A DNA stretch of 55,503 bases from Nostoc sp. MG11 (lineage in GTDB: Bacteria > Cyanobacteriota > Cyanobacteriia > Cyanobacteriales > Nostocaceae): contig NZ_JACXXN010000036.1 in the NCBI RefSeq assembly GCF_014904695.1, positions 1 to 55,503 on the forward strand, in the 5' to 3' direction. Of this stretch, positions 22,625 through 44,402 are shown one piece after another. The translations under genes were made by a program, and so were the position numbers. Every line of letters starts with the position of its first letter. The stretch's first letter is position 1. The notes beneath the pieces are model-generated. The model searched no databases. It was given only the letters and a program-made list of their open reading frames with translations, and had not been told where the DNA came from.

Positions 22625-23455
22625 CTATAGTTTAACGCCCAAGGCTTCCTGATTTAAGACCTGATTTAACTTACCACTACGATAACCTTCTAAATCTAGG
22701 CTGACATAGACAAATCCAAAATCCTGAAATGTGGAAACTAATGTTTGTAAATCCGTAGTCAACACAAACTCTTTGATTTGTTCTGGTGGTAATTCAATGC
22801 GTGCTGTATCGCCTTCCGAACGCACACGCAAATTTTGCCAACCCAGTTTTCGTAAGAAAATTTCTGCCCTACCAACTCGCTGTAACTTGGCTACAGTAAT
22901 CTCTTCACCGTAAGGAAAGCGAGAACTCAGACAAGGTTGAGCAGGTTTACCCCACCAAGGTAAACCGAGTTGTTGCGAAAGTTGTCGGACTTCTGCTTTA
23001 GTAACACCTACTTCTGCTAAAGGCGATCGCGCACCTCTTTCCTTAGCCGCCTGAATTCCTGGGCGATAATCATGCAAATCATCAGCGTTCACCCCATCCA
23101 CTACATAGGGATAACCCAATTCCCAAGCTAAAGGTTTGAGAGTGTCGTGCAATTCACTTTTGCAAAAATAACAGCGGTTGACTGGGTTAGAGGTGTAATT
23201 AGGATTTTCCATCTCGTGAGTCTGGACGATTTTATGAGTAATCCCAATCGTTGCTGCTTGAATTTTGGCATCTTCCAACTCTTCGGGTAATAGCGAAGGA
23301 GAGACAGCTGTTACAGCCAAAGCGCGATCGCCCAACACATCATAAGCAATTTTGGCAACCAAAGTACTATCAACGCCTCCTGAGTAGGCGATCAACGCCT
23401 GCTCCATTTCTAAAAATAAGACTTTTAGTTGTTCCAACTTTTCTGTCAGCATCAT
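22625..23455 (-). CDS. larE: LarE-like ATP-dependent sacrificial sulfur transferase
   Basis: LarE donates sulfur from its own cysteine or from an iron-sulfur cluster to nicotinic-acid-derived mononucleotide during synthesis of the nickel-pincer cofactor. The 276-residue protein has the PP-loop SGGVDSTL near residue 25, NRCYFCKSELH near 93, and GKPAQPCLSSRFPYG near 169, with Cys175 in the position of the sacrificial Cys176 of the Lactobacillus protein. The C-terminal VGRAEIFLRKLGWQNLRVR is also typical. No larB or larC gene is in the window. A sulfur-transfer reaction of another kind is possible, since many organisms carry LarE without lactate racemase. Confidence 0.85.
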   Translation of the reverse strand: MMLTEKLEQLKVLFLEMEQALIAYSGGVDSTLVAKIAYDVLGDRALAVTAVSPSLLPEELEDAKIQAATIGITHKIVQTHEMENPNYTSNPVNRCYFCKSELHDTLKPLAWELGYPYVVDGVNADDLHDYRPGIQAAKERGARSPLAEVGVTKAEVRQLSQQLGLPWWGKPAQPCLSSRFPYGEEITVAKLQRVGRAEIFLRKLGWQNLRVRSEGDTARIELPPEQIKEFVLTTDLQTLVSTFQDFGFVYVSLDLEGYRSGKLNQVLNQEALGVKL

Positions 23456-23586
23456 GTTCCAATCCTGCTAAAACCCAATAGCACCCAATCAATACTATTG
23501 TAGTCAGCAGTCAGGAGATGAAAGTCAAAGGTCAAGGGTCAGTACCTATTTCCCCTTGTCTCACACTTTTACACTCTCTGACTTGC

Positions 23587-25434: not shown

Positions 25435-25605
25435 GGTCAACTAGACCGGTGAACAAATTAGCTTCGCATAAAAATGCGAACAGGATTCTATGTAAATTAG
25501 CGGACAACTCTTTTATATTTATAAACCATAACTTATGTAGCAGCCAGTCTAAAAATTCTTGTATGAAATTACTCATTTAAAATTTTTTGATCGCAACTTA
25601 AAACT

Positions 25606-26472
25606 ATGGATACACAATTCGCTCAACTAATCGTCAATGGAATTGCTGTGGGAAGCATTATTGCTCTAGCAGCAGTCGGCTTGACTCTTACCTATGGAAT
25701 TTTACGGTTATCTAACTTCGCTCATGGTGACTTTCTAACTTTAGGAGCCTATCTTACTTGGCTGGTGAATACCTTTGGAGTCAATATTTGGCTGTCGATG
25801 ATACTGGCGGCGACGGGAACAGTATCGGCGATGCTTTTATCAGAAAAGTTTCTATGGTCAAGAATGCGCTCTATCCGTGCTACTTCCACTACGCTGATTA
25901 TTATCTCCATAGGACTGGCTTTATTTATTCGCAATGGAATTATTTTTATTTGGGGCGGTAGAAACCAAAATTACGATGTACCTGTAACTACTGCTCTTGA
26001 TATCTTGGGCTTAAAAGTACCACAAAATCAATTATTGGTATTGGGTTTAGCGGTATTAGCAATTTTGGCGCTGCACTACCTCTTGCAAAATACCAAAATT
26101 GGTAAGGCGATGCGAGCTGTTGCCGACGATTTAGATTTAGCTAGGGTATCTGGTATTAATGTCGACAGAGTAATTCTGTGGACTTGGCTAATTGCTGGCA
26201 CTCTCACATCTTTGGGGGGGAGCATGTATGGGTTAATTACAGCTGTCCGCCCAAATATGGGATGGTTCTTAATATTACCATTGTTTGCCTCCGTGATTTT
26301 AGGAGGAATTGGCAACCCTTACGGTGCGATCGCCGCAGCTTTTATCATCGGCATTGTTCAGGAAATCAGCACCCCTTGGCTGGGTTCTCAGTATAAACAA
26401 GGTGTGGCACTGTTAATTATGATTTTGGTGCTGCTCATTCGTCCCAAAGGTTTATTCAAAGGCACGATTTGA
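25606..26472 (+). CDS. natD: LivH-type amino-acid ABC transporter permease (NatD-like)
   Basis: This 288-residue integral membrane protein belongs to the branched-chain amino acid permease family: GIAVGSIIALAAVGLTLTYG at the N-terminus, LRLSNFAHGDFLTLGAY, and KIGKAMRAVADDLDLARVSG, the cytoplasmic loop that docks the ATPase. Around eight hydrophobic segments are visible. In cyanobacteria a LivH-like permease that is not in a urea (urt) cluster is normally NatD of the N-I neutral amino acid uptake system, whose genes are scattered in some species; that fits a lone gene. The symbol is inferred on that basis. Confidence 0.8.
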   Translation: MDTQFAQLIVNGIAVGSIIALAAVGLTLTYGILRLSNFAHGDFLTLGAYLTWLVNTFGVNIWLSMILAATGTVSAMLLSEKFLWSRMRSIRATSTTLIIISIGLALFIRNGIIFIWGGRNQNYDVPVTTALDILGLKVPQNQLLVLGLAVLAILALHYLLQNTKIGKAMRAVADDLDLARVSGINVDRVILWTWLIAGTLTSLGGSMYGLITAVRPNMGWFLILPLFASVILGGIGNPYGAIAAAFIIGIVQEISTPWLGSQYKQGVALLIMILVLLIRPKGLFKGTI

Positions 26473-26493
26473 GCAGCACCATTCCACTTCTAA

Positions 26494-26631
26494 CTATTGA
26501 ATAATGTGGAAATAGTACGCTGCTACCAGAAAGTTGATAGCTAACAGGAACAATGCCCAGCCTGTGCGAAAGGCGTAGGGAGGTTTAGCTCCACTATCAG
26601 CAACTGGTAAATCTTTACTTTTAGCAGTCAT
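26494..26631 (-). CDS. psaX: Photosystem I subunit PsaX
   Basis: This 45-residue gene is easy to overlook. The ATG at 26631 is preceded by AAGGAG eight bases upstream. The product starts MTAKSKDLPVADSGAKPPYA and continues with FRTGWALFLLAINFLVAAYY. The second segment is nearly identical to the single transmembrane helix of PsaX from Thermosynechococcus (FRTFWAVLLLAINFLVAAYYF, as I remember it). PsaX sits at the rim of cyanobacterial photosystem I and contacts a chlorophyll and lipids. The gene is convergent with natD, with only 21 bp between the stop codons. Confidence 0.93.
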   Translation of the reverse strand: MTAKSKDLPVADSGAKPPYAFRTGWALFLLAINFLVAAYYFHIIQ

Positions 26632-26814
26632 AAACGGTTCTCCTTAATGTCAGGACTTTTTAAGAAATACCAAACAGGTGTACCCATTACCCAAATTCTT
26701 TAAAAATATTTGTGTAGCTTGGGGAATTGGGGATTGGGGACTGGGAAAAGACAACATAAACAAAGCAGAGTAATAATTTCTCCTTGTCGTCCTTGTCCCC
26801 CTTGTTCTCAATCC
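26632..26814. repeat. psaX leader and GGGGATTG-type short repeats
   Basis: This short region between psaX and lipA holds the psaX ribosome binding site and promoter. Near 26720-26748 there are tandem degenerate copies of GGGGATTG/GGGGACTG, a short-tandem-repeat type common in Nostocales spacers. No further gene is seen. Confidence 0.5.
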
Positions 26815-27720
26815 CTAATCTCCTGCGTGGTAGGAACTGCGAACCAGAGGCCCAGAACGGACGTGGCTGAATCCCATTTTCCATGCTAAGCTGCCGAGCT
26901 GATCAAATTCCTCTGGAGTCCAATATTTTTGGACTGGCAGATGATCTAAGGAAGGACGCATATACTGACCAATAGTCAGGCGATCGCACCCCACAGCCCT
27001 CAAATCAGCCATTGTTTCGCTCACTTCATCTAGTGTTTCTCCATGTCCCAGCATCAAACCTGATTTGGTGGGAATATTCGGCTCGATTTCTTTGACCATA
27101 GCCAGCACTCGTAGTGAGCGATCGTACTTTGCTCCTCGACGCACTGGCCCAGTTAACCGTCGCACTGTCTCGATATTGTGGTTGAAACAAGCTGGCAAGG
27201 CTTGGACAATCATAACTATTCGCTGGTGTTGACCTGACTCTCCAGATCCCGTACCACCCCAAAAATCTGGGGTCAGTACTTCAATTTGAGTTTCTGGGTT
27301 CAACTGGCGGATAGTGGCGATCGTCTTCACAAAGTGACCCGCTCCCTGATCGGGCAAGTCATCACGGGCTACAGAAGTCAGCACTACATAACGCAATCCC
27401 AAAAGCTGCACCGCCTCTGCCACTTTTTGTGGTTCCTCTAGATCAACAGGCATCGGTGCATGACCTTTATCAACTTGACAAAAAGCACAAGAGCGTGTGC
27501 AGGTAGGCCCCATTAGTAAAAAGGTAGCAGTTTTTTGGGCGTAGCACTCCCCCCTGTTAGGGCAGCGTCCTTCTTCGCAAATCGTATGAATTTGGCGCTG
27601 CTTAATAATACGCTGTACCGTGGAGAGTTCGCTGGCTTTGCCAATAGGGCGACGTAACCAGCTAGGTATTGCTGTAATTTCAGACTTGAGTTGGGCTGGT
27701 TGTGACGAAGTCATAGACAT
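26815..27720 (-). CDS. lipA: Lipoyl synthase
   Basis: This radical SAM enzyme inserts two sulfur atoms into protein-bound octanoyl groups to make lipoate. The auxiliary cluster motif [12 protein letters not shown] is at about residues 48-59. The radical SAM motif CTRSCAFC is near residue 74. The C-terminal [13 protein letters not shown] contains the RSSY motif whose serine ligates the auxiliary cluster. The length of 301 is normal. Cyanobacteria often have two lipA copies; this is a complete one. Confidence 0.96.
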
Positions 27721-27973
27721 CCAAACAAGATGCAGAGATAAAGTAAGGCGAGTTTCTTCTGCTCTTGAGCAAAGTTAAGGCCTTAAATATCACCATGACA
27801 CAAATTGCAAAGAACATAGGCAAAAGTTTTGCAAAATACCTCTAGTCATGTGATTTATACCGAAATATACTGTCCCCCAATCAACAAAAATTTTGGATAT
27901 AGTGGGAGCATTCTCAAAGTCAATCGGCAAAGCCGCTATTTACACTTAAAGTTTCTGTTTAGAGCAATCAGCC

Positions 27974-28606
27974 GTGGCAAGTAACAAAATTTTAGTTATC
28001 GATGACACTACAGTTGTCAGGGTAAAAGTACGAGAAATGCTGCCTCCAGGCAATTTCGAGGTACTGGAAGCAAAAGATGGGATGGAAGGACTAAATTTCA
28101 TCCTTCAGGAAAAACTCAGCCTCATCATGTTGGATTTTCTGTTGCCAAAAATGAGTGGTTGGGAAGTTTTCCAGCAAATTCAAGCCCAGCCTGAGTTACG
28201 AAAGATTCCTTTGGTAATTATGTCTGGTCGTAAGGAAGAGGTAACAGAGAAAATCACAGAACCCTTTGAATATTTTGAATTTCTAGGAAAGCCTTTTGAC
28301 CAGAAACAACTAATTGGCGCGATTAAGTTAGCCATGACAAAGGCTAAACAGCCTCGTCCAGAGCCAGTTCTGGTAGGGGCAGGTGTTGGTGCTAGAAATG
28401 GCCCTGTAGCAACCTCTAGTGATGGAGTTACAGCAGCAACTTTTAGTACTGAAAACAGTACACCAGCAGCCTCTAATACTGAAGCAGCTTCCTCCGCAGA
28501 AATAAATGCGCTAAGTGAGAAAATTGTCAAAATGCAAGGGGAAATTGATGGTTTGAAGAAACAGCTAGCTCAAGTTGTGACTTTTATTAAACAGAAAATT
28601 AAGTAG
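27974..28606 (+). CDS. Response regulator with C-terminal linker and coiled coil
   Basis: The first 125 residues form a receiver domain with the acidic pair at Asp10-Asp11, phospho-acceptor Asp54 in IMLDFLLPKMSGWE, a Ser in VIMSGRKEE and Lys in FLGKPF. After an Ala/Thr/Ser-rich linker (about 130-170) a helical C-terminus EINALSEKIVKMQGEIDGLKKQ probably forms a coiled coil. There is no DNA-binding or enzymatic output domain, so it may act through protein contact. It starts at GTG 27974. Its cognate kinase is not evident. Confidence 0.88.
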   Translation: MASNKILVIDDTTVVRVKVREMLPPGNFEVLEAKDGMEGLNFILQEKLSLIMLDFLLPKMSGWEVFQQIQAQPELRKIPLVIMSGRKEEVTEKITEPFEYFEFLGKPFDQKQLIGAIKLAMTKAKQPRPEPVLVGAGVGARNGPVATSSDGVTAATFSTENSTPAASNTEAASSAEINALSEKIVKMQGEIDGLKKQLAQVVTFIKQKIK

Positions 28607-29117
28607 CTTTTGCGCTCTCTATTTTCAATGTTCTCTTGAGCTAATAAAGTAAGAAGAAAAGTTTTTCTACACTTGAAATTGATATGTAAGTCTACCATAT
28701 TTAGGTAGATTTCAAAACCAAACACCTGACTTATTAGGGTAGAGGTAATCTGAGTTTCTAGTCTAGTAAACAACTCCAAATACAATAAACCTGCCGCAAT
28801 TTACTTTTGAGCTAAGGTAACGGCAGGCTTTTTATTGTTTGGAATTATCTAAAATAAGTAATTTACAAATATACTAAATCAAGATACGTAATTGAATATA
28901 AGATAAAACTTTAGTTTTTGCAGTGTGAATAGTAATATTATTGTTTGACTTTAGCATTAGTATTTTTATAATTACACAATTTAATATGAGATTTTTCTTA
29001 AAAAAGATGCATTTTGAAATACAAGTTAAATAAAATAAATCTACTATTTGATGATAACGACAGCCTTCTCACGGGAATACTAAGCGATATAAACACAAAT
29101 TATGAGCATGAGCTGCG
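28607..29117. other. Non-coding spacer with hairpins
   Basis: This 511-bp AT-rich spacer has no supported gene. TCTACC-N7-GGTAGA (28691-28709) is a small hairpin. A much stronger one lies at 28783-28837. The right half must hold the promoter of the giant kinase gene. A 22-codon reading frame begins at ATG 29102 and overlaps the kinase start out of frame; it could be a leader peptide, but this is weak. Confidence 0.5.
28783..28837 (+). terminator. Rho-independent-like terminator hairpin
   Basis: CCTGCCG (28790-28796) pairs with CGGCAGG (28821-28827), and outer CAATAAA (28783-28789) pairs with TTTATTG (28831-28837). The right arm runs into CTTTTTATT. It probably ends the response regulator transcript, though it lies about 180 bp after the stop codon. 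Confidence 0.6.
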
Positions 29118-32100
29118 ATGTCAGTAGTATTCGATACATTATACGTGCTTCCCGGTTATCGCATTACTGAGCAAATCTACTCAGGCAGCAAAACCTTAGT
29201 TTATCGAGGCATCAGAGAACAAGACCAAAAATTGGTCATCATCAAACTGATGCGAAATGAATATCCTACGTTCGTGGAAATCGCCCAGTTCCGCAATCAA
29301 TACACCATCACCAAAAACCTTGACCTTCCTGGCATAGTCAAACCCTATAGTTTAGAAAACTACCGCAACGGCTATGCGCTAGTGATGGAAGACTTTGGCG
29401 GTATCTCTCTTCAAGACTGGCGACTGGGAGATAAGGCAAAGGAAGGCAATCCTGTTTCTTTGAGTGAGTTTTTCTACATAGCCATTAAAGTTGCTTCCAC
29501 CCTTGAGCAATTGCATTGCGATGCCTACGGCGAGCTACGCCTACGCATCATTCACAAAGATATTAAACCTGCCAATATCCTAATTAACCCTACCACAGGT
29601 GAGATCAGGCTCATCGACTTTAGTATCGCCACCCTCTTGCCAAGAGAAATTCAATCTCTCACGAATCCCAACGTCTTAGAAGGAACGTTGGCTTACATTT
29701 CTCCCGAACAAACCGGAAGGATGAACCGAGGTATAGACTACCGCACCGACTTTTATTCCCTTGGTGTCACCTTCTTTGAACTTCTCACCGGACAGTTACC
29801 CTTCACCCCCACTGACCCGATGGAGTTAGTTTATTGTCACATTGCCAAAGAACCACTTAAAGCAAGCTTGATTAGCTCCAATATTCCCCCAATTTTATCC
29901 AACATCATCAGCAAACTGATGGCAAAAAATGCCGAAGACCGCTATCAGAGTGCCTTGGGATTAAAGCATGACTTGGAAGTGTGTCAAAACCAGTGGCAAG
30001 AAACTGGAAATATTGCTCCCTTTGAGTTGGGATACCGGGATATCTCAGACCGTTTCGTTATTCCCGAAAAACTTTATGGTCGCCAACGTGAAGTAGAAAC
30101 CCTACTTGCTGCTTTTGGACGTGTGACAAGCGGAGTCACAGAAATGATATTAGTAGCAGGTTTTTCTGGTATTGGCAAAACTGCGGTAGTCAATGAAATC
30201 CACAAACCCATTGTGCGGCAGCGTAGTTACTTTATCAAAGGTAAATTTGACCAGTTCCAACGTGATATTCCTTTGTCAGGATTGGTACAAGCTTTTCGTG
30301 ACTTAATTGGACAAATACTATCGGAAACTGATGCTCAAATTGAACAGTGGAAAGTCAAGATTTTGTCAGCCTTGGGTACACAAACTCAGGTAATTACCGA
30401 TGTAATTCCTGAACTAGAACAGATTATTGGCAAGCAACCCCCAGTTGCAGAACTCTCTGGCATTGCTGCTCAAAATCGTTTCAATTTGTTGTTCCAAAGA
30501 TTTATCCAGTTGTTTACCGCTAAAGGACATCCCTTAGTTATTTTTCTGGATGACTTGCAATGGGCAGATACAACTTCTTTGAAATTAATTCAACTATTAA
30601 TGAGTGAAAACCCGTCATCTTCTCTCGCAAATGAAATAGATAAACTAGATGAAGCTAAGGGAGGTTTCCTGGTTGTTGGTGCGTATCGGGATAATGAAGT
30701 TTCAAAGGCGCATCCGCTTTATTTGACACTACAGGAGATTGAAAAAGCTGGAGCAGCTATTAATACTATCACTCTATCACCTTTAAATCAAGGTGATTTA
30801 AACCATCTGATTGCTGATACCCTTCATTGCCCTGAAGTATTTGCTGTTTCTCTCACCCAAATGGTATTCGCCAAAACTAAAGGCAACCCTTTCTTTTCTA
30901 TTCAATTTCTTAAGTCTTTATTAGATGAGAAACTAATTACATTAAACTTTGATATTGGGCATTGGCAGTATGATATTACAAAAATCAAGGCATTAGCCCT
31001 TACAGATGATGTAGTGGAATTTCTGGCAATTCAAATAGAGAAATTGCCAATAAATACTCAAAAAGTTTTAAAACTTGCTGCTTGCATTGGCAATCATTTT
31101 GACTTAAAAGCTCTCGCCATTATACATGAAAAATCTGTAGTAGATACAGCGTCAGACTTATGGCAAGCATTACTTGAGGGATTAATTTTACCTCAGACTG
31201 ATGTTTATAAAATATTTCCAGAAAATATTAATGATCAACATTTACTAGTTAATAGTAAAGAATCTACACAATTTCCAAGTTCTAATTTACAACTACCTAA
31301 ATATAAATTTGTACATGATCGAGTGCAGCAGGCTGCTTATTCCTTGGTTCCTGATGACCAAAAAAAGCCAATTCATTTAAAAATTGGGCTAATGCTGTTA
31401 AGTAGTATCTCAGTTGCAGAACGAGAAGAAAATATTTTTGAGCTTGTCAATCAGTTCAATATTGCAGTGGAATTCATTCCTAATCAGGATAAGCGTGATG
31501 AACTGGCTACGATGAATTTGATTGCTGGACGTAAAGCTTTGGCATCAACGGCTTATCCAGCTGCGATTAAGTATTTAACTACTGGAATAGAACTATTAAC
31601 AAGTGGTGATAGTTGGGAGAGTGAATATGAGCTAACCCTAGCTTTACATGAGACAGCAGCAGAAGCGGCATACTTAGCTGGCGACTTTGAGCAAACTGAG
31701 CAATTAATAGAGGTAGTGTTAGCACGAGCTAAAACACTATTGGAGAAAGTGAAAGTTTATGAAGTCAAACTTAAAGCCTATGGAGCGCAAAACCAAGCAC
31801 TCAAAGCAGTCAATACTGCACTAGCCTTTCTGAAGTTGTTGGAGGTGGATTTCCCTGATAATCCTAGCCAGTCTGATGTTCAGCTAGCAATGGTAGAAAT
31901 CACATCAAATCTAACTGGCAAACGTATTGAAGACTTGATTAGCCTGCCAGAGATGACACAAGCACAACCACTGGCGGTGATGCATATCCTAAGCAATGCA
32001 ACTATTTTTGCTTATGCAGTTTCTCCTGAGTTTTTACCACTGATTGTCCTTAAACAAATCATTTTATCTGTTAAACATGGCAATACTCCCTTATCTGCTT

Positions 32101-34778
32101 TTGGATATGTTGTTTATGCATCAATACTCTGCGGAGTGATGGGAGATATTGAAACTGGTTATAAATTTGGCAAGTTGTCTGAAAGTCTTTTATCTAAGTT
32201 CCACACTAAAACTGTTACAGCTAAAATACTTACGACATTTAATGCCAATATCAGACCTTGGAAGGAACATACCAGAGAAGCATTAAAGCCTTTACACGAA
32301 GCTTATTCGGCTGGACTGGAAACGGGAGATTTAGAATTTGCAGCCTTTTCTCTTTTGGCTTATTCTTACTATTCATATTTCATCGGTAGAGAATTGACAG
32401 GGCTAACACAGGAGCTAACAATCTACAGCAATGCTATTGCTAAAACCAAGCAAGAGAGAATGCTTAATTGGCTGACTATTTATTGGCAGAGCGTTTTGAA
32501 TTTGCTAGGGAATGTAGAATATCCCTGTCGTTTAATTGGTGAAGCCTACGACGAGGAGAAAATGCTACCAATTCAACTTCAAGCCAAGGATAGAGTCGGA
32601 CTTTTATATTTATATTTCAGCAAACTACATCTTTGTTACCTATTTCAGGATTTTCCTCAAGCAGTTGAAATTGCTATTCTGGCAGAAAAGTATTTAGATG
32701 CTGGTACAGGACAACTAGTTGTTCCTCTTTTCCATTTTTACAATTCTCTAATTATGCTAGCTGTGTGCCTTAATTTCGATGAAGCTGAACAAAAACAAAT
32801 CTTGACAAAGGTAGCTATTAGCCAGGAAAAGATGCAGCATTGGGCAAATCACGCTCCAATGAATTATTTGCACAAGTTTTATTTAGTGGAAGCAGAACGA
32901 TATCGGGTCATTGGTAAATATGTAGAGGCAATGGAATTGTACGATCGCGCTATTTCCCTTGCTAAAGAACATGAGTACATTAATGAAGAAGCTCTAGCGA
33001 ACGAACTTGCTGGGAAATTCTATCTAGGGTGGGGCAAACAGAAGATTGCACAAACATATCTAATTGATGCCTACTATAGCTACGTTCGTTGGGGTGCTAA
33101 AGCCAAAGTTGACGATTTGGCAAAACGTTATCCTCAGTTACTTGCTTCCATACTCCAGCAAGAAAACCTGAGCTTCCATTCCAGAGATCAAAGTACTTCT
33201 CTCAATAGCCTATCTTTATCTACTACTCTAAGTAATCAACAAACTATTATTGGTTCTAAAACAAGCATTTCCGACTCTCTGGATTTAGCAGCATTCATCA
33301 AAGCATCTCAAGCACTCTCTGGAGAAATTGAGCTTGAACGACTGCTTTCTACTTTAATGAAAGTTGTAATGGAGAACGCAGGAGCCTCTAAATGCGCTCT
33401 GATTGTGAGCAAAGGTAATAACTTAGATTTAACCATTACTGTGATTAGTTCAAATTCAACTCATACAGAGTTTCCATCAATTAGTTTAGAGTCAAGCGAC
33501 GATGTTCCTATTACTTTAATTAACTACGTTAAACGTACTAGGGAAATTTTCGTCATCGACGATGCAATGGCTGTCGCATCTTTGGCAACCGACAGCTACA
33601 TTATTCGAGAGTCACCTAAAAGCTTGTTGTCTATACCTATTATCAATCAAGGGAAATTGATTGGTATTCTTTACCTAGAAAATAATCTAACTACAGGAGC
33701 ATTTACAAGCGATCGCGTTGAAGTTATCAAACTCCTCACTACTCAAGCAGCAATCTCGCTAGAGAATGCCATCCTCTATAAAAATTTGACACAAGCTAAG
33801 GAAAACTTAGAAGAATATAACCATACGCTAGAGGAAAAAGTTGAGGTAAGAACGCAAGAACTTAACAACAAAAATCATCGTTTACAGCAAGCCCTGGAGG
33901 AATTGCAACGTACCCAAACTCAATTGATTCAAAGTGAAAAAATGTCTTCATTAGGGCAGATGGTGGCGGGAATTGCCCATGAAATTAATAATCCCATCAA
34001 CTTTATTCATGGCAATATTACTCATGCTAGTGAATATGTCCAAGATTTGCTGGATTTAATTACTCTTTATCAGCAGGAATACCCTCGTCCTTCACCTCTA
34101 GTTGAGGATAAAACGGTAGAAATAGACATAGATTTTTTAGCAGAAGACCTGCCAAAAACTTTAGCTTCAATGAAGCTTGGCAGTTCGCGCATCAGAAATA
34201 TTGTTTTGGGCTTACGCAACTTCTCTCGTCTAGATGAATCGGAAATGAAACCTGTAGATATTCATGAGGGTATCGACAATACCTTGATGATTTTGCAGCA
34301 CCGACTCAAGGCAAAGAGCGATTATCCAGAAATTGAAGTCATCAAAAAATACGGACAACTGCCAGAAGTTACTTGCTACGCTGGTCAACTTAATCAGGTG
34401 TTTATGAATATCCTAAGCAATGCGATCGATGCTTTGGAGAATTCAGAAGTCAGTAGTCAGTGGTTAACGGTCAATGGAAAAACAACTGACAATGAACAAC
34501 CGACAATTGATAATCCTACAATTCACATCTTTACTGAATTAACAGATTCAAATACTGTAATAATTCGATTTGCTGATAACGGTTCTGGTATGACACAAGC
34601 AGTGAAACAGAAAATCTTTGACCCATTTTTTACCACTAAGTCGATAGGAAGTGGTACAGGATTAGGGTTGTCAATTAGCTATCAGATTGTTGTGGATAAG
34701 CACAAGGGTAGTTTAACTTGTGATTCCACATTAGGAAGGGGAACTGAGTTTGTAGTTGAAATACCGATGCGACAGTAG
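29118..34778 (+). CDS. Giant Ser/Thr kinase-ATPase-GAF-histidine kinase signalling protein
   Basis: This 1886-residue dual-kinase protein belongs to a type common in Nostoc. An N-terminal Ser/Thr kinase (about 10-290) has Lys43 in [15 protein letters not shown] (146-153) and DFS (167-169) in place of DFG. An AAA-type ATPase domain follows, with Walker A GFSGIGKT (348-355) and Walker [13 protein letters not shown] long helical, TPR-like region fills about 700-1370. A GAF domain (about 1395-1550), a coiled coil, then HisKA with His1621 in [15 protein letters not shown], and a HATPase domain with N box, DNGSGM and GTGLGLS end the protein. The loop at about 1776-1800 seems derived from an intergenic repeat. 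It converges on the UbiA-P450 operon. Role and ligand are unknown; the receiver partner is not fused. Confidence 0.9.
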
Positions 34779-34820
34779 ACTTCTGGTATTCTGAATATTA
34801 GGAATTTTGCCAGAAGTCTA
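34776..34820. terminator. Bidirectional terminator between kinase and P450 genes
   Basis: TAGACTTCTGG (34776-34786) and its exact complement CCAGAAGTCTA (34810-34820) form an 11-bp stem with a 23-base loop. The left arm includes the TAG stop codon of the giant kinase gene. Its position between convergent stop codons suggests termination in both directions. Confidence 0.65.
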
Positions 34821-34834
34821 GTCAAATAGCTAAG

Positions 34835-36229
34835 CTAGAGGACGCATGTAGTTTTCATATTTACTAAAGAATTTTGACGCACACGCTGTTCTGTAATAAC
34901 CATTTTGACGCCATTGCCAGGTGCAAGCGTCATACCTCGGCGCTGGGGTCGCTCTGGTTTTTGATCTGCCAACCTCAGTTGATAGTTTGACAAGATAGTT
35001 GCTAATACTAGCTTCATTTCAAAGACAGCTAAAGCCTCACCAATACAGCGTCGGACACCGCCACCAAAAGGCAGAAATTCATAAGGAGAAAATTGACGTT
35101 CTAGAAAGCGCTCTGGCTTAAACTGCTTCGGCTGTGGATACAAATCTTCACGGTGATGAGTGAGATAAATGCAACCTTGCATTACCGTACCAGGTTCTAA
35201 CGAATATCCCAGTAGTTCAACAGATTCTTGCACTACCCTGGGCAATGTGAACATAGCCACGGGGTGAATCCGCAAGGTTTCATTACAGACAGCGGTGAGA
35301 TAAGGCAGCCGATAAATGCTCATAGGGTCTTTTGAATCACCCAGAGTATCTAATTCCTGAAACAGTTTTTCACCTACTTCTGGCAAATGATGAATCCAAT
35401 ACAAAGCCCATGCGATCGCTGTAGCTGTAGTTTCATTTCCGGCAAGCATTAGAGTCATCAACTCATCGCGCAACTCTTGATCCGTCATTGTGTTACCTGC
35501 TTCATCTTGAGCGAACATCAGCAACGAGAGGATATCGATACGCTCTAAATCGGGATGCTCTCGGCGTTCGGCAATATCTGCGTAGAGCAGTTCATCAAGT
35601 ATTCGTCGATCATGTAGAAACTTTCCCCAAGGACTCCAAACTCCTAAATCTTTTTGCAAGAAGGAGAACAAGAGTAAGCTAGACGTGAGTGGCGACCGAA
35701 AGACATCCGACATCAACACTGTAAATAAATGCTTGAGTTTTTGATAACGTTCTCCTTCATACAAACCAAATACGGTTTGTAACATGACTTGCAAGGATAT
35801 CTCCTGTGTGATGTCACGAGCTAGGAAGGGTTGATTTTTGGGTAACTGACTCAAGACTTTTTCAGTCAAATTACAGATTTGCTGCCCGTAGACTTGCATC
35901 CGCTCTCCATGAAAGGAGGGTGTCACAAGTTGCCGTTGTCGTTTGTGTTGCTCGCCGTTCAGTAAGAGCATTGAATTGTCACCGACTAAGGGATGCATAA
36001 CACTGTTTGCCTTACCGAGGGCGGCAAATTTCTTGCGATCGCTACTTAAAAGTTTCTGGATTGCTTGGGGATTGTTAACGAATACTACAGTATCCCCAAA
36101 ACCAACGATCTCAGCAGTGAAAATATCAGGATATTCCTGAACTGCGCTTTCCAAATATCCTACTGGATCAAAAACCCACTGGAGTTTCTGTACAAAAGAA
36201 GAGGTTTTGAGAGTATTTGGGAGTTTCAT
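34835..36229 (-). CDS. Cytochrome P450, CYP110-like
   Basis: This is a 464-residue haem-thiolate monooxygenase. The I-helix is marked by LAGNETTATAIAWAL, the K-helix by ETLRIHP, and the haem loop by FLPFGGGVRRCIGE with the ligand Cys. Overall sequence (for example KANSVMHPLVGDNSMLLLNG and HKRQRQLVTPSFHGERM) is of the cyanobacterial CYP110 type. CYP110 members oxidise fatty acids, alkanes or terpenes. The gene begins 49 bp after a UbiA-family gene, so the two are probably one operon and the UbiA product may be its substrate. No redox partner gene is adjacent. Confidence 0.9.
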   Translation of the reverse strand: MKLPNTLKTSSFVQKLQWVFDPVGYLESAVQEYPDIFTAEIVGFGDTVVFVNNPQAIQKLLSSDRKKFAALGKANSVMHPLVGDNSMLLLNGEQHKRQRQLVTPSFHGERMQVYGQQICNLTEKVLSQLPKNQPFLARDITQEISLQVMLQTVFGLYEGERYQKLKHLFTVLMSDVFRSPLTSSLLLFSFLQKDLGVWSPWGKFLHDRRILDELLYADIAERREHPDLERIDILSLLMFAQDEAGNTMTDQELRDELMTLMLAGNETTATAIAWALYWIHHLPEVGEKLFQELDTLGDSKDPMSIYRLPYLTAVCNETLRIHPVAMFTLPRVVQESVELLGYSLEPGTVMQGCIYLTHHREDLYPQPKQFKPERFLERQFSPYEFLPFGGGVRRCIGEALAVFEMKLVLATILSNYQLRLADQKPERPQRRGMTLAPGNGVKMVITEQRVRQNSLVNMKTTCVL

Positions 36230-36278
36230 CTAAATCTTTAATTGCGTAACACTACTGTTAGAGAATTCTGCAAGAAAT

Positions 36279-37178
36279 TTAAAGAATTACGATCGCGCTA
36301 GCTAAGACAAGGCAAAACCAGTAGGTTAACAGCATATAGGTATGATGATCTGCCTGGGGATTGCGATAAAGCATAATTCTAGCGGCAATAATCCAGCAGA
36401 GTACTGTGAGTCCAAGTTCACATGCCAAGACATTCAAAGTATTTCCCGCAGGCATCATCAGTACTAAATGAATTACAAGTGGTAAAAATGTAAAGCCCAC
36501 ACTTAGTATCACTCGGCTTGCTGTTTCTCCAATCACCATCGGCAATGTCTTGCGACCAATAGCGCGATCGCCTTCCATGTCACGAAAATCCTGAACAGCG
36601 ACTAGTGTAGTCCAGAAAACTCCCATCATGAATATCCAGCGCCAAGCGATCGGTGTAATTGGTGTGACTATTTCCCATGCTGCGGCAAGTTCTGCAACTG
36701 CACCAACTCCGATTACAAGACCTTTGGTAAACCAATTCTTATCCCAACCAGCGAAGTGATATAGAAAAGTGAATAGTTGCCATAGCAATGCCCATTCTAA
36801 AACTCCAAGCCACAGCCCGATCAACGAGAATGCAATTTGGCTACAAGCCAATCTAACTAAAGCTCCATGATATGAAACAGCTCCAGTTACAAGTGGGCGA
36901 TCAGGCTTATTAATCCGATCCTCATCTATGCCAATGATTTGGTTAGCGATACAAAATGATAAGATGAACAACAAAAAATAAATAAAGCCACGTTCTAATG
37001 CCAAAAACAACTCCCCAAGAGATGATTGGCTGTTCTTCCAGGCGGCTATTATAAACAGCAGTGCAGGCAAAATCGTGGTGGAATAATCGCGCCTAATGAA
37101 TAGCCAAATCAGGTATGGTTCACGAATCAGGCTACTACTAAATTGTGTCAAAACCTGAAATTTTGCACTATTGATCAT
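36279..37178 (-). CDS. UbiA-superfamily membrane protein, possible UbiA-type terpene cyclase
   Basis: This 299-residue protein has about eight hydrophobic segments and two Asp-rich motifs. The first is NQIIGIDEDRINKPDRPL (near residue 81) and the second is VQDFRDMEGDRAIGRKTLP (near 193). Canonical aromatic prenyltransferases have NQxxDxxxDxxNKP; here the first Asp is Gly and an extra Glu-Asp pair is present. That form resembles fungal UbiA-type terpene cyclases. It is the leading gene of an operon with the P450. It could instead be a divergent aromatic prenyltransferase. The start ATG 37178 is plain, with no strong ribosome binding site. Confidence 0.75.
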   Translation of the reverse strand: MINSAKFQVLTQFSSSLIREPYLIWLFIRRDYSTTILPALLFIIAAWKNSQSSLGELFLALERGFIYFLLFILSFCIANQIIGIDEDRINKPDRPLVTGAVSYHGALVRLACSQIAFSLIGLWLGVLEWALLWQLFTFLYHFAGWDKNWFTKGLVIGVGAVAELAAAWEIVTPITPIAWRWIFMMGVFWTTLVAVQDFRDMEGDRAIGRKTLPMVIGETASRVILSVGFTFLPLVIHLVLMMPAGNTLNVLACELGLTVLCWIIAARIMLYRNPQADHHTYMLLTYWFCLVLASAIVIL

Positions 37179-37978
37179 AATAACTAAATCCTTAGTAAAA
37201 TCAAGTTTGACAATGAATTTTAGCTACAACACAAATTCACATAATCTGAATGTTATGCGAATAAATATTGATTAAATCTGCAATTTAACTGGTGAAAAAT
37301 ACAAGATTACACCAAGTTTTCAACAGAACATTAATTACATTTATGCTGCTGTTTTTGGTGTTTAAAGTTAGGTGTATGTTCCCAAGATTAATTAATAATT
37401 GTTCAATACTTTCTTTAAAAAGATATCCGTAATTACACGTAATTAAAAAATATTATAAAAAAAATATTAAGCTGACGCCGATTCATGATAAATACTGATG
37501 ACAATCGGAAAAAGTGCAATAGCGTTTAGTAGCAATGCTAATTAGCTAAAAAGGCAAGGGTATTAATAACTAATTATAAATATTTCGTTCTGTAATTTTA
37601 TGTATTATACAGCAGCTAATGCGATCATAAGATTTACGCTGAGAGAATGAGCAAACTAAAACCAAAGATTGATGCCACATGTGTGTAGAGACGTTACATG
37701 TAACTGTTTAGAGACCGTAGATGTAACGTCTCTACAGGGTTTCGGGTTTTATTTATGTACTTCATTTACCTGAAATCTGCTGTATGTCTGCTGTTTAAAA
37801 TTCTCAAAAATTGCCTCTGCGGCTTATTATCGTCATTACCTTCGTTATCTAAATCTTTGCAGTGGTGAGTCTGTTGAGGAAAAATAAGTAATTTTTTTGG
37901 TACAAATCTAGCTATTGCTAGATGCTGTAATTCTGTTAAAAGCTATAATTTACAACTGTTGAACAAAGAGATTAACTT
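37179..37978. other. 800-bp non-coding region
   Basis: No supported gene is seen. The left part is very AT-rich and should hold the UbiA-P450 promoter. A 16-bp palindromic element lies at 37684-37736. The rest holds no clear RNA gene or tRNA by eye. Confidence 0.5.
37684..37736. repeat. 16-bp inverted repeat, GTAGAGACGT family
   Basis: TGTAGAGACGTTACAT (37684-37699) and its exact complement (37721-37736) flank 21 bases. The GTAGAGACGTT core is shared with the palindrome at 527-561, so the two belong to one dispersed family. MITE-like spread is inferred. Confidence 0.75.
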
Positions 37979-39313
37979 GTGGATGTCATACTAGAGCGAT
38001 CGCACGAACTAAAACAAGCCATAGTAGATTTTGTCCTAGACGCAGAGGGGGAACTGGCACAAGCACTAGAAACCTATGCAGCGAAACAGTTACGTCGTGG
38101 GAGTGGTGATAGCACACAGCAGGACTTAATTATTGACAGTTTTCTCACAGAAGGAAAAGTCAATGAGCAGTCACCACTAGAGTTATTTACACAAAGCAAT
38201 CCTAATTTATTAGAGAGCGATCGCAACCTGATCAACAGCTGGCATCGTAGTTTTATTGGCTTATTTGCTATAGCTAACACCCTACCTGATGGCTTTGAGT
38301 TAACGAACTGGCTCACAGATAAAAATTACATTGTCAAGCCAAACAATGCCAAAACACTACAGGAAATATCTCGGTTAAAAGTAGGAGAAATCATTTTAAC
38401 TCGAATTTCTCCCGTCACCGATAGCTATTGGATGTTTTCTGGCCCCTACACACTGATGGGTAAATTGGGTAAACCAAAACTTGCTGTAGCAATTGGCAAT
38501 TTCAAAGATAACTATAAAAGTAATCTTTACAGCGATGCTCCAGACTTGCTAGAAGAAGCTTGGCAATCAGTAGTAAAATACCACCAACAGTTTGTTGACT
38601 TTTTTGGCGCTGATGAAATCACATTACCTGGTTATCAGCTTAATAAAAAAATAGCTGAATTTCAAGAATTAATTACTGAGAAACAGTTAGCAGATGCAGG
38701 AATTGATCCATCAAAATCCCTGGCTGAAGTGGCAGAAGCCGCTGGCATTGGAGATGAGGAAATCAAAGCAGCGGCAGAAGAATTTGGTGCTGACTCCAAG
38801 ACAGTTTCTCAAATGTTTAACAGCAAAAGTGGCAATAGTAAAATGGTGATGCCAAAGGTTGATTTACCTGCCGAACTCAAGAAAGCAGAACAGGTAACAG
38901 CTCTTTCTCATCCTCGTTGGGGACAAATGTTTTTACCAACATACAGTAAAATCCAAGCAATTTTATCAGCAGAAGACTGGCACAATATTGAAGGTGCTGA
39001 AAAACTAATTCGCTACTACCTCGAAGATAAAAGTATTAATGCATTTATCTGGCATCGATTAGCGCAACAGTATCCAACTCAGTTAGAAAAGGTGTTGCAG
39101 ACATTTCTACAACGTCCTGACCTTCGCCTTGCAACCAACTTAGACGCACTTTTGCAAGAATTTCACAAACCCATCGAGCCGGAATTACCAGAAATTGCTA
39201 GTGTCCCCATACATCTGCATAACTTATTTCAAGAAGCTTTAGGAGAAGTGAATAAATCTAAGCCTAAGAGTAAAGGGCAACAAAAGCCAGCAAAGGGTTT
39301 TCAACGAGGTTAA
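37979..39313 (+). CDS. Conserved-type protein of unknown function
   Basis: I do not recognise this 444-residue protein. It starts at GTG 37979 with AAAGAG about nine bases upstream. It is soluble and mostly helical, with an N-terminal LERSHELKQAIVDFVLDAEGEL helix, a central globular part (ISPVTDSYWMFSGPYTLMGKLGKP divided over residues about 145-168), an acidic helical segment (ADAGIDPSKSLAEVAEAAGI), and a basic C-terminal tail rich in Lys and Gly. There is no signal peptide or membrane segment. It converges on the gene at 39349-41181, with 35 bp between stops. Confidence 0.7.
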   Translation: MDVILERSHELKQAIVDFVLDAEGELAQALETYAAKQLRRGSGDSTQQDLIIDSFLTEGKVNEQSPLELFTQSNPNLLESDRNLINSWHRSFIGLFAIANTLPDGFELTNWLTDKNYIVKPNNAKTLQEISRLKVGEIILTRISPVTDSYWMFSGPYTLMGKLGKPKLAVAIGNFKDNYKSNLYSDAPDLLEEAWQSVVKYHQQFVDFFGADEITLPGYQLNKKIAEFQELITEKQLADAGIDPSKSLAEVAEAAGIGDEEIKAAAEEFGADSKTVSQMFNSKSGNSKMVMPKVDLPAELKKAEQVTALSHPRWGQMFLPTYSKIQAILSAEDWHNIEGAEKLIRYYLEDKSINAFIWHRLAQQYPTQLEKVLQTFLQRPDLRLATNLDALLQEFHKPIEPELPEIASVPIHLHNLFQEALGEVNKSKPKSKGQQKPAKGFQRG

Positions 39314-39348
39314 CTCACTCGCCATCTTTCCCACTCCTTCCCTCTTTT

Positions 39349-41181: not shown

Positions 41182-41913
41182 AGAGCTTTGTGCTGATCTT
41201 CTATATAGTTTTTCTGATCTTTGAGGGGAGGAAATGAACTTTTTGGGTTAATTGATATAGATGCACAGTTTTAACCAATCACAGCCTGAGAATCAGAACG
41301 ACCAACTTTCTAACACAAATTCCGTCTTTTAACCAAAAATTAAAATAGCAGTAATAATTGTTCGCTCCGCTACATTTTTGGTTGACTAGATGTGAAATTA
41401 AACAATCTGTCCAAAAGTAGAAATTACAAATAAAAAATGGGAATAATAAAGTTTTTGAGGATTTTAACTGCATTACTTAGTGATAATTAAATTCATGGTA
41501 GCTACTACCCTCAGCTTCTAGTTGCAGAGCAGTTGTAATAGAATTATCTAAAGGTGAAGGAGACAATGCTATGTCATGTATAGTTGCATTCAGAGATATT
41601 ACTTGTTAGAGAGGAGGCAGCAAAAAAGACTCCTGACCCCTAACTCATAACTTATACAGAGATTTTTGACAGAAATGCTAGTTATCTTCTATGCTGGGAG
41701 ATTTACTGAGGAGATTAATTACGTTTTGTTGACTTGGCACAAATGGGTTGGTTATAGAAATTAATTTGTCTCATCTGCCGAATTCGATAAAATTGATCGA
41801 TGAAAAATAAATTCCTATAGTTCCCCAAAACTTAATTCTGCAATTAAGGTGCTGCAAAAGATTAAAGACAGCACCAATCAAAAGCTTTGAAAGTGTCAAT
41901 ACAAGGTGCGTCA
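41182..41913. other. Non-coding region upstream of sucC-like gene
   Basis: About 730 bp with no supported gene. It contains the promoter regions of two divergent genes. AAGG at 41903-41906 is the likely ribosome binding site of the sucC-like gene. Short open frames on the minus strand have improbable composition. Confidence 0.5.
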
Positions 41914-43140
41914 ATGGATTTATTAGAGTACCAAGTTAAAGAATGGTTTGGGAAGATAGGCATTCCGGTATTGCCTTCCCAAAGAATCGACCATCCCACA
42001 GATTTAAAACGTTTAAAAATCCGTTTTCCGATTGTACTAAAATCTCAAGTACATGGAGCTGAACGGGCAAAAGCTGGTGGTGTTAGATTTGCGGAAACGA
42101 CAATTGATGCGATCGCCGCTGCACAAAGTATCTTTAATTTACCGATTTGGGGTGAGTTACCAGAAGTTTTATTAGCAGAATCTCAATACGACGCCAAACA
42201 GGAATTTTACTTAGCAGTGGTTTTAGATACTGCTGTTTGCCGACCAGTACTTTTAGGTTGCAAAGAAGCCAATATTGATTGGGAATCGGCTGGGGAAAAA
42301 ATGGTGCATGTTGTCGTTGAACAAGAATTCTCTCCATTTTATGCGCGACGACTAGCTTTGAAAATGGGCTTGCAGGGAACGCTAATGCAATCGGTAAGCA
42401 GCGTTGTCGAAAAGATGTATCAGTTATTTGTGCAGAAAGACCTGGATTTAGTGGAAATTAATCCCCTGGCAGTTAATGCTGCTGATCAAGTTATGGCTCT
42501 CAATGGTAAAGTTAGGGTCAATGAACGGGCAATCAAGCGTCATCCAGATCTCGCTCAGGTAGCGGCAAACATCATCAGCCGTCATACCAGTACTGAGATT
42601 AACGGCATTTTAGGCGACTGGGATGGTGTAGAAATGCACGGCAAAATCGGTATTTTGGGTAATGGCGCTGGTTCGGTAATGGCAACCTTAGATTTAGTCT
42701 CTAATGCTGGTGGTAAACCTGGTGTTTGTTTAAATCTACGTCATGCTTTCCTTACAGATACAGCACCAACGACCTTTCGCGATCGCTTAGACATTGGTCT
42801 GAAAATCTTAAACGCTGACAAAAGTATTCAAGTGATACTAATTAACTTCTTAGGTAGCATTCCTCAATCTGAAGAAGTAACTGAAGTCATCGCTAAATTT
42901 GTGCAGCAAGACAAAAGCGAACTCAAATCCCAGGCTGTAAGCTCGAATGGCAGTAAAAGCCTTCGAGTACCTAATTTTCTACCCTTAGTTGTCCGTCTTG
43001 CCGGCTCTGAATTCAACGCCGCTAGAGAATATTTCGCAGAACTAAAAACCCACACTGATGCGCTGATAGTGGTAGAAAATTTAGATGAGGCAGTAGACAA
43101 AGCAGTTCGTTTGGCTAAGTTAACCGCTTCTAAGAAATAA
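41914..43140 (+). CDS. Succinyl-CoA synthetase beta-like protein (divergent)
   Basis: The start ATG 41914 (MDLLEYQVKEWF) matches the usual N-terminus of the family; a TTG 27 bases upstream is unlikely. The 408-residue protein has an ATP-grasp domain and a C-terminal CoA-ligase domain. LKSQVHGAERAKAGGV corresponds to E. coli VKCQVHAGGRGKAGGV. LVEINPL keeps Glu197 and Asn199. However, the Mg ligand Asp213 is Asn (LNGK for LDGK), and the GGGA and GGI substrate loops are altered (LNLRHAF; LGSIPQ). Its partner is the alpha-like gene 380 bp downstream. It may act on another acid or not be a full synthetase. Confidence 0.85.
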   Translation: MDLLEYQVKEWFGKIGIPVLPSQRIDHPTDLKRLKIRFPIVLKSQVHGAERAKAGGVRFAETTIDAIAAAQSIFNLPIWGELPEVLLAESQYDAKQEFYLAVVLDTAVCRPVLLGCKEANIDWESAGEKMVHVVVEQEFSPFYARRLALKMGLQGTLMQSVSSVVEKMYQLFVQKDLDLVEINPLAVNAADQVMALNGKVRVNERAIKRHPDLAQVAANIISRHTSTEINGILGDWDGVEMHGKIGILGNGAGSVMATLDLVSNAGGKPGVCLNLRHAFLTDTAPTTFRDRLDIGLKILNADKSIQVILINFLGSIPQSEEVTEVIAKFVQQDKSELKSQAVSSNGSKSLRVPNFLPLVVRLAGSEFNAAREYFAELKTHTDALIVVENLDEAVDKAVRLAKLTASKK

Positions 43141-43520
43141 TTACTGATCCGTAATTCGTAATACTCGCGCCTGGCGCGAGAAGCAAGCTACGTAATGGGC
43201 TACGCCCCGCTATACTAACGTAATTCAAAGGGTACAGAGCAAGCACTGATTGTAACTACGAATTACATGAGCACAGTGGTAACGATAGCGGTAGGGAGAA
43301 ACGAGCGTCATTATCAATTACGAATTACTTTGACGCTTGAGTAGTCACTAGTGCTGTGGTATCGAGCGTTTACCTGGAAGCCGACGCCTAGACTTCTCTC
43401 AAAATTCAAAAATTATTAATTTTTACCGCAAGGGAAGAATTTTTAAGCTTGACGACGCTGAAACTAGGTAATCTTAGTAAAAATTAAAAGTACTAGGTTG
43501 TCAAACTTACGGTAATTTTT
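43141..43520. repeat. Repeat-containing spacer between the beta- and alpha-like genes
   Basis: The 380-bp gap contains GTAATTCGTAAT near 43151 and the opposite AATTACGAATTAC near 43316, with CGCGCCTGGCGCGAG and GGGCTACGCCCC between them. These are inverted, intergenic-repeat-type sequences. No gene or terminator is clear. The gap may unlink transcription of the pair. Confidence 0.55.
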
Positions 43521-44402
43521 ATGAACTTAACACCAGACAGTAAAGTGCTGATTCAAGGCTTTTGTGAATTCATCTCAGGAACTCATATTGCTCAAATGAA
43601 AGCTTATGGCACAAATTTGGTAGCTGGTGTCAATCCCGGATGTGGTGGACAGCAACTTAACGATCTGCCAGTATTTGACTTGGTGGAGGAAGTGATAGCA
43701 GAATTTGGAGCAATTGACACAACGATTATTTGTGTACACCCTTTCCAAGTATTAGATGCGGCATTGGAAGCGATCGCATCTAATATCGGTCAGATAATTA
43801 TTATCACTGCTGGCGTGCCGCCTTTGGATATGGTGCAATTACTTCGCAAAGCCGAGGCGTGTGAAACTCTTGTGATAGGGCCAAATAGTCCTGGGATCAT
43901 TGTGCCAGGGAAAATTCTTTTAGGCACTCACCCTAGTGAATTCTACACTCCTGGGCCAGTAGGCATCGTCAGCCGTAGCAGCACCCTCACCTACGAAGTT
44001 GCCTACGAATTGACCAAAGCTAATTTAGGACAGTCAATTAGTGTCAGTATTGGTAGTGATGCGATCGTCGGTTCCTCGTTTCTGCAATGGCTGCAAATTC
44101 TCGATGAAGATGAAACTACGCAGGCGATCGTTTTAGTCGGTCAACCCGGTGGAGGTAGTGAAGAAGCTGCGGCGCGGTATATTGCTGAAGCAATTGATAA
44201 ACCAGTAATTGCTTATATTGCTGGCAGACAAGCACCACCAGGAAAAAGTTGGCGTCAGACTGGGACTTTGGCAACGGTTATCGGACGTGATTCTAACTTT
44301 GGCACAGCTCAAAGTAAATTAGCTGCTTTAAAAGAAGTACATGTTCCGGTAGCTGAACGTCCTTCTCAAATTCCAGAATTGGTCAGAAAAAGGATTAATT
44401 GA
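43521..44402 (+). CDS. Succinyl-CoA synthetase alpha-like protein lacking the catalytic histidine
   Basis: This 293-residue protein aligns with E. coli SucD along its whole length (SKVLIQGF, PVGIVSRSSTLTYEVAYELT, AYIAGRQAPPGKSW). At position 246, where SucD has the phospho-accepting His of GHAGA, the sequence reads RQTGT with Gln246. At 208, Glu of GEIGG is Gln (GQPGG). The CoA-binding loop GFTGSQGTFH reads GFCEFISGTH. The codons CAG at 44256 and CAA at 44142 are clear, so this is not a frame problem. Phosphoryl transfer through His is therefore not possible as in canonical enzymes. It might bind CoA or form a regulatory or alternative ligase with the beta-like protein. Confidence 0.88.
   Translation: MNLTPDSKVLIQGFCEFISGTHIAQMKAYGTNLVAGVNPGCGGQQLNDLPVFDLVEEVIAEFGAIDTTIICVHPFQVLDAALEAIASNIGQIIIITAGVPPLDMVQLLRKAEACETLVIGPNSPGIIVPGKILLGTHPSEFYTPGPVGIVSRSSTLTYEVAYELTKANLGQSISVSIGSDAIVGSSFLQWLQILDEDETTQAIVLVGQPGGGSEEAAARYIAEAIDKPVIAYIAGRQAPPGKSWRQTGTLATVIGRDSNFGTAQSKLAALKEVHVPVAERPSQIPELVRKRIN

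Follow-up and report, generated by a model that had tools for sequence, protein, structure and literature searches.

A 55,503-nucleotide stretch of the genome of Nostoc sp. MG11 (contig NZ_JACXXN010000036.1, positions 1 to 55,503; below, the window) contains a gene pair encoding a UbiA-family protein and a cytochrome P450, adjoined by the gene of a dual kinase. The UbiA-family protein is likely an intramembrane terpene cyclase that occupies the cyclase position in a terpenoid locus conserved among Nostocaceae; from sequence comparison, we estimate the probability of this as roughly 0.75. The estimate is based on the two motifs of the protein, on the separate clade formed by the protein and its relatives, and on comparison with loci where that position is taken by a class I terpene synthase. 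An earlier note on this DNA, made from the letters alone, had proposed such a cyclase-P450 pair with a dedicated sensor as new for bacteria. The motifs, the separation from the named prenyltransferases and the synthase slot speak for that interpretation; the dedicated sensor and the novelty for bacteria had to be given up.

The candidate cyclase gene (36279-37178, minus strand, 299 amino acids) and the P450 gene, the second gene of the pair (34835-36229, minus strand, 464 amino acids), are co-directional, with 49 bp between the UbiA stop and the P450 start (36230-36278). The kinase gene (29118-34778, plus strand, 1886 amino acids) is convergent and ends 56 bp from the P450 stop. The pair and the adjoining kinase lie exactly at the coordinates given for them previously. 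Pfam was run on 15 window proteins, a subset of the window open reading frames; it assigns UbiA (PF01040, E-value 9.9e-29) to the 299-amino-acid protein, p450 (PF00067, 3.5e-80) to the 464-amino-acid protein, and Pkinase, AAA_16, GAF and HATPase_c to the kinase, giving the order Ser/Thr kinase - AAA ATPase - GAF - histidine-kinase ATPase. By eye, the P450 contains the segments NETLR and FGGGVRRCIGE, the usual ExxR and heme-cysteine segments. CYP110, the family proposed for it earlier, is named by none of the 60 PDB matches listed of the 189 for this protein. Closely similar UbiA proteins are encoded by Komarekiella atlantica HA4396-MV6 (99% identity), Nostoc sp. B(2019) (97%) and K. delphini-convector (96%), and thus the gene does not stem from an error in a single assembly. 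The ratio of nonsynonymous to synonymous substitution rates within the genus is about 0.03-0.13 for UbiA (three comparisons) and about 0.09-0.10 for the P450 (two comparisons); both genes are under purifying selection within the genus.

The strongest evidence comes from kinase loci without a UbiA gene. Twenty such loci were compared, selected from the best kinase matches and complemented by second copies in UbiA-bearing genomes. In 18 of the 20, all from other Nostocaceae, the kinase gene is followed by a convergent P450 gene and then by a gene encoding 321-364 amino acids in the orientation of the P450 gene, although, as the loci were chosen, this fraction is not the rate in a random sample. 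Terpene_syn_C_2 (PF19086) was identified in all six slot proteins submitted to Pfam (E-values 4.7e-42 to 5.3e-53), and all 18 contain the segments DDQCD and NDxxSxxRE. We take these class I loci to be the published sesquiterpene synthase-P450 clusters of Nostoc and Anabaena. Of the two exceptions, L123 is cut off by the end of its contig and L140 lacks a P450 gene; in L126, the kinase and the P450 are split. Two more class I loci were found in UbiA-bearing genomes (L163, L164).

The left flank of the window, consisting of a gene for a 288-amino-acid protein (25606-26472, plus strand), a radical SAM gene (26815-27720, minus strand, 301 amino acids) and a response-regulator receiver gene (27974-28606, plus strand, 210 amino acids), is common to 16 of the 18 class I loci in the same order and orientation. 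Moreover, the window DNA is collinear through the kinase and P450 genes with L122, L125 and L124. The collinearity stops at 36,229, 36,241 and 36,239, respectively, that is, at the P450 start codon. The order, the orientation and the break of collinearity place the UbiA gene at the site of the class I synthase, so that the earlier statement that it takes the synthase place is literally true across the related loci. The feature that defines a class I locus, a class I synthase gene upstream of the P450 gene, is absent from the window, where the UbiA gene is found instead. Five class I synthases searched against the whole window produced no match at E-value 0.01, and a search for a synthase remnant at 36,000-38,500 yielded nothing convincing, with one match at E-value 0.1. 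In the genome of Nostoc sp. MG11, PF19086 detects a single further class I synthase gene, which encodes 776 amino acids with two domains, the size of a geosmin synthase.

Motif I of the UbiA protein reads N79-Q-I-I-G83-I-D-E86-D87-R-I-N-K-P, and motif II reads Q196-D197-FR-D200-MEG-D204 (VQDFRDMEGD). The signature of fungal UbiA-type terpene synthases, as given in the accessible text of PMC9835599, consists of motif I NXXX(G/A)XXXD and motif II QDXXDXXXD, and the window protein conforms to both. It does not conform to the prenyltransferase motif I, N(D/Q)XXDXXXD, as the first Asp is replaced by Gly. All four aspartates whose alanine mutants abolished product formation in Tps1A (PMC9835599, accessible text) have motif counterparts in the window protein. 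In the alignment of 18 relatives (A1), positions N79, Q80, E86, D87, N90, K91, P92, D197, R199, D200 and D204 are invariant, and thus motif I is not a chance occurrence. Of the 18 rows, 15 have Gly and three have Asp at position 83, and 17 have Gln at position 196. A collection of 35 other cyanobacterial UbiA-family proteins, many of them near-identical ChlG, has Asp at the equivalent of G83 in all 35 cases and Glu at the equivalent of E86 in none. The change of the first Asp to Gly and the added Glu-Asp pair, noticed previously, are as described, and the G83/E86 combination is shared by none of these 35.

The host genome (8.4 Mb) contains seven UbiA-family genes. Domain fragments from the six other proteins exceed the NCBIfam cut-offs for heme o synthase, homogentisate phytyltransferase, ChlG, cyanobacterial MenA and EboC, and the sixth paralogue scores 274.1 of 275.45 bits with the 4-hydroxybenzoate prenyltransferase model, just below the cut-off. 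The window protein matched 14 NCBIfam models, none at the cut-off, the best score being 58.7 of 269 bits. In the maximum-likelihood tree of 46 rows, which omits eight near-identical ChlG rows and the loci L070, L076, L079 and L080, the window protein groups with 18 relatives (support 100/100), among them two that lie beside polyprenyl synthetase genes. This 19-row clade stands apart from the clade of the host's own homogentisate phytyltransferase and from the other named prenyltransferases. Hence the grouping with homogentisate or quinone prenyltransferases that had been proposed as refuting a cyclase is not observed within this 46-row sample.

Within the family, 21 of 217 genomes encode relatives of the UbiA protein (E-value 1e-7), one relative being truncated (L079); three matches from a contig scan lie on the same contigs as G370-G372 and were counted once. 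At the level of the class, a profile search of 388 genomes at E-value 1e-30 matched only the genome of Nostoc sp. MG11 itself, and 159 of 291 genomes match at E-value 0.001, with the best score besides the own gene being 36 bits. The gene is accompanied by kinase and P450 genes in eight of the 21 genomes (the own one, L061-L066 and L080; in L063, frame breaks split both neighbours) and by kinase and flavin adenine dinucleotide (FAD) monooxygenase genes in six (L067-L072; FAD_binding_3 was identified by Pfam in one, and the others were assigned by 85-89% similarity). Four more (L075-L078) have a GMC oxidoreductase gene and a DUF1702 gene among others (Pfam on L077 only). The remaining three have one arrangement each: a class II diterpene-cyclase-like gene with Rieske oxygenases (L073), a type III polyketide synthase (PKS)-like gene (L074), and a remnant of a FAD monooxygenase gene next to the truncated UbiA gene (L079). 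A search of the plasmid collection found two relatives only, one in Streptomyces sp. YIM 121038 (36%, covering 78% of the query) and the other in Bacillus subtilis DK01 (27%, covering 58%), and in both a polyprenyl synthetase gene directly adjoins the UbiA gene. The motif of the Bacillus relative reads NQAVGAEEDRINKP. The oxygenases and polyprenyl synthetases encoded next to UbiA relatives were counted in favour of a cyclase.

Some of these loci deserve mention in their own right. The 53-kb plasmid of B. subtilis DK01 (L112, CP123774.1) contains, together with the UbiA relative, genes for a polyprenyl synthetase, idi and a FAD monooxygenase, and looks like a plasmid-borne terpenoid pathway. 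In L073:347-5093 (G416:C30), the UbiA relative is 89 bp from a class II diterpene-cyclase-like gene encoding 565 amino acids, and two Rieske-domain genes are present. The best PDB matches of the class II-like protein are copalyl diphosphate synthases; read by eye, the DADD of the best match is replaced by NSDN in this protein. This may be a two-cyclase diterpenoid operon in a cyanobacterium. In L074:338-2688, the UbiA relative is divergent from the type III PKS-like gene and may be a prenyltransferase or represent a different use of the family. The clusters of L075-L078 are similar to each other and combine a UbiA gene with the motif I Asp, a GMC oxidoreductase gene, DUF1702-like genes and a gene for an RTX-repeat protein; that of L076 also contains a carotenoid-oxygenase (RPE65) gene.

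Several observations weigh against assignment of the window protein as a cyclase. Motif II of homogentisate phytyltransferase reads KDIPDMEGD, that is K-D-x-x-D-x-x-x-D, and the main difference is Q versus K. Therefore, the three aspartates of motif II are not diagnostic by themselves, and the discriminating residues are G83, E86 and Q196. No conserved counterpart of the Tyr reported as essential in Tps1A was found in alignment A1; position 140, which was guessed without an alignment to be the equivalent of Tps1A Y155 and AfUbiA Y139, is Tyr in five and His in ten of the 18 rows. The prenyltransferase Asp occupies position 83 in the four relatives L075-L078, and the relative in L074 is the neighbour of the type III PKS-like gene. 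The UbiA tree contains long branches, and no characterised cyclase is among its rows. The AlphaFold model, built from four near-identical rows, had a pLDDT (predicted local distance difference test) of 40.3, was unusable and was discarded. The right flank, which differs from that of the class I loci, and the placement of the kinases of L124, L130 and L141 (both described below) also speak against the assignment. Finally, the class I locus is also retained in several UbiA-bearing genomes (L128, L131, L133-L139, L163, L164). In particular, the six genomes with the FAD monooxygenase have both versions, UbiA in L067-L072 and class I in L133-L138, and thus the two are not alternatives in those genomes.

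For catalysis, substrate, product and regulation we infer the following scheme. D87 of motif I and D197, D200 and D204 of motif II would bind Mg2+ and the diphosphate of farnesyl diphosphate (FPP) or geranylgeranyl diphosphate (GGPP). The diphosphate would leave within the membrane by Mg2+-assisted ionisation, and the resulting cation would cyclise onto itself, since the first prenyltransferase Asp is replaced by Gly and no acceptor would be provided. The P450 encoded by the neighbouring gene would then oxidise the cyclic hydrocarbon, and the convergent kinase, like its counterparts in the class I version, probably adjusts expression to some signal. The missing class I enzyme, found elsewhere beside the same P450 lineage, slightly favours FPP as the substrate, as do the sesquiterpene synthase genes reported from P450 clusters of Anabaena and Nostoc. 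GGPP is also a candidate, in view of the known bacterial UbiA-type cyclases such as StlTC and of the copalyl diphosphate synthase-like neighbour in L073.

The kinase does not appear to be a dedicated sensor, as had been suggested earlier: a 551-amino-acid stretch of it matches 176 of the 217 family genomes at E-value 1e-140, and its nearest relatives are kinases of class I loci. A first kinase tree, with own-genome paralogues only, had made the 14 UbiA-partner kinases one clade, but the wider search and tree overturned this. There, four kinases of the genus are sister to 16 others (Shimodaira-Hasegawa-like approximate likelihood ratio test, SH-aLRT, 99 for the joint clade), of which 15 are from synthase-carrying loci and one (L123) is from a contig edge. 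They are not sister to the UbiA-partner kinases of other genera. The P450s of both kinds of loci, one further P450 of the host and a second P450 near L065 form a clade of 25 rows with support 100/100, and the nearest branch to the query P450 is not settled inside it. The P450 trees omit the split P450 of L063 and three of the ten P450 genes of the host, of which one contains a stop and two have no locus; the wider one also omits two distant P450s of the host and has no rows for L123, L126 (P450 split), L134 and L140.

This pattern suggests a course of events to which we give slightly better than even odds: a UbiA-type cyclase would have displaced the unrelated class I synthase, the P450 and the kinase being retained, and elsewhere the P450 would have been swapped for a FAD monooxygenase. 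The locus would then be of a plug-in type, with two cyclase folds serving the same oxygenase and regulator. The class I-locus kinases L124, L130 and L141 complicate it, as they fall outside the joint clade, L141 being placed beside kinases of the FAD-monooxygenase type (99). A possible but less probable course, equally compatible with a cyclase, is that kinase, P450 and UbiA genes entered the site as one unit. Indeed, another species of the genus (G373; L158, G373:C102:1-19000) has the counterparts of the window flanks 22,625-28,629 and 37,877-39,314 at a distance of about 580 bp from each other, and its 19 kb showed no trace of the kinase, P450 and UbiA genes that separate these flanks in the window (28,630-37,876). 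The right flank points in the same direction: 15 of the 18 class I loci have a receiver/histidine-kinase gene there (Pfam on one), whereas the window has a gene encoding 444 amino acids with no Pfam match (37979-39313, plus strand), which is next to the response regulator in G373. Either course, exchange in place or entry of the three genes as one unit, could thus have led to the window. The same triple of genes at other sites in two other genera and the unsettled closest kin of the query P450 are also consistent with arrival of a unit. On the other hand, it fits poorly with the kinases of the genus, which group with those of the synthase-carrying loci rather than with UbiA-partner kinases of other genera, and with the left flank common to 16 of the 18 class I loci. 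By the kinase tree and the left flank, exchange in place is favoured.

As regards function, the window protein might instead be an aromatic or meroterpenoid UbiA prenyltransferase, which would prenylate an aromatic compound made elsewhere, with the P450 oxidising the product. We consider this unlikely. It agrees with the UbiA fold, with the nearest named families being prenyltransferases and with the resemblance of motif II to that of homogentisate phytyltransferase, and it was considered, in particular, because of the class II cyclase neighbour in L073 and the type III PKS-like neighbour in L074. The putative tolypodiol cluster contains ubiC, ubiH and ubiE, according to the accessible part of PMC8073705. 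However, no gene for an aromatic precursor was seen among the 15 Pfam-scanned window proteins, the first motif Asp present in all 35 other collected cyanobacterial proteins is replaced by Gly, the clade is separate with support 100/100, and the protein occupies the place that terpene synthases have in other genera. The top NCBIfam matches ('prenyltransferase' of unnamed substrate; geranylgeranylglycerol-phosphate geranylgeranyltransferase) and the best PDB match (digeranylgeranylglyceryl phosphate synthase) suggest another alternative, in which the prenyl group is passed to an acceptor that is not aromatic, comparable to archaeal-type lipid synthesis, or the diphosphate is only cleaved to a prenyl alcohol oxidised by the P450. 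With NCBIfam scores far below the cut-off and a slot that argues for cyclisation, this is quite improbable.

Two features elsewhere in the window were observed in passing. The protein encoded at 7288-9537 (749 amino acids) combines ABC transporter domains with a HisKA stretch. An ATP-grasp / CoA-ligase protein is encoded at 41887-43140, and by eye the next open reading frame resembles its partner subunit, the two (41887-44402) forming a succinyl-CoA-synthetase-like pair.

UbiA-type cyclases of bacteria and fungi are reportedly the subject of a 2017 Angewandte paper. The suggestion that any bacterial UbiA-type cyclase would be new was too strong, since the accessible text of PMC10301674 presents StlTC, which makes lydicene, and a UbiA-type enzyme from platencin biosynthesis as diterpene cyclases of this type from bacteria. 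The window protein resembles them as a bacterial UbiA-family protein, but its partners are a P450 and a dual kinase, and neither a polyprenyl synthetase nor a class II cyclase is present among the 15 scanned window proteins. The accessible text of PMC10301674 names no cyanobacterial UbiA-type cyclase, and neither such a cyclase nor such an exchange of synthases was found in the open-licence literature searched, as far as its accessible text goes. With the fungal Fma-TC, EriG and Tps1A/Tps2A the window protein shares the UbiA family and both motifs, and a P450 acts in the Tps1 pathway too (PMC9835599, accessible text). In contrast to the fungal enzymes, it is bacterial and comes from a photosynthetic organism; the likeness seen is in the motifs, and no conserved counterpart of the Tyr reported as essential in Tps1A was found among its relatives. 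Homogentisate phytyltransferase and related UbiA prenyltransferases have in common with it the family, the NQ...NKP segment and a DxxDxxxD-like motif II; it differs from them by Gly for Asp, by the Glu added before the second Asp, by Q for K and by its separate clade.

A further analogy is with the class I sesquiterpene clusters. In Anabaena and Nostoc, the genes of germacrene A synthase and 8a-epi-alpha-selinene synthase are clustered with P450s (PMC4390852, accessible part), as the candidate cyclase gene is here. In a published test, PF19086 did not match UbiA-related diterpene synthases (PMC10055836, accessible part). If our reading is correct, there is a cyanobacterial branch of UbiA-type cyclases that genome mining with this class I model would overlook. 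Moreover, the locus would represent a natural swap of terpene cyclase folds before the same P450 lineage, testing the tolerance of the oxygenase to a new cyclase. The comparison suggests that two unrelated enzyme families are able to fill one slot in a conserved neighbourhood: the class I loci examined share the P450 lineage and the kinase with the window, whereas the cyclase candidate of the window is a UbiA membrane protein and not a PF19086 enzyme.

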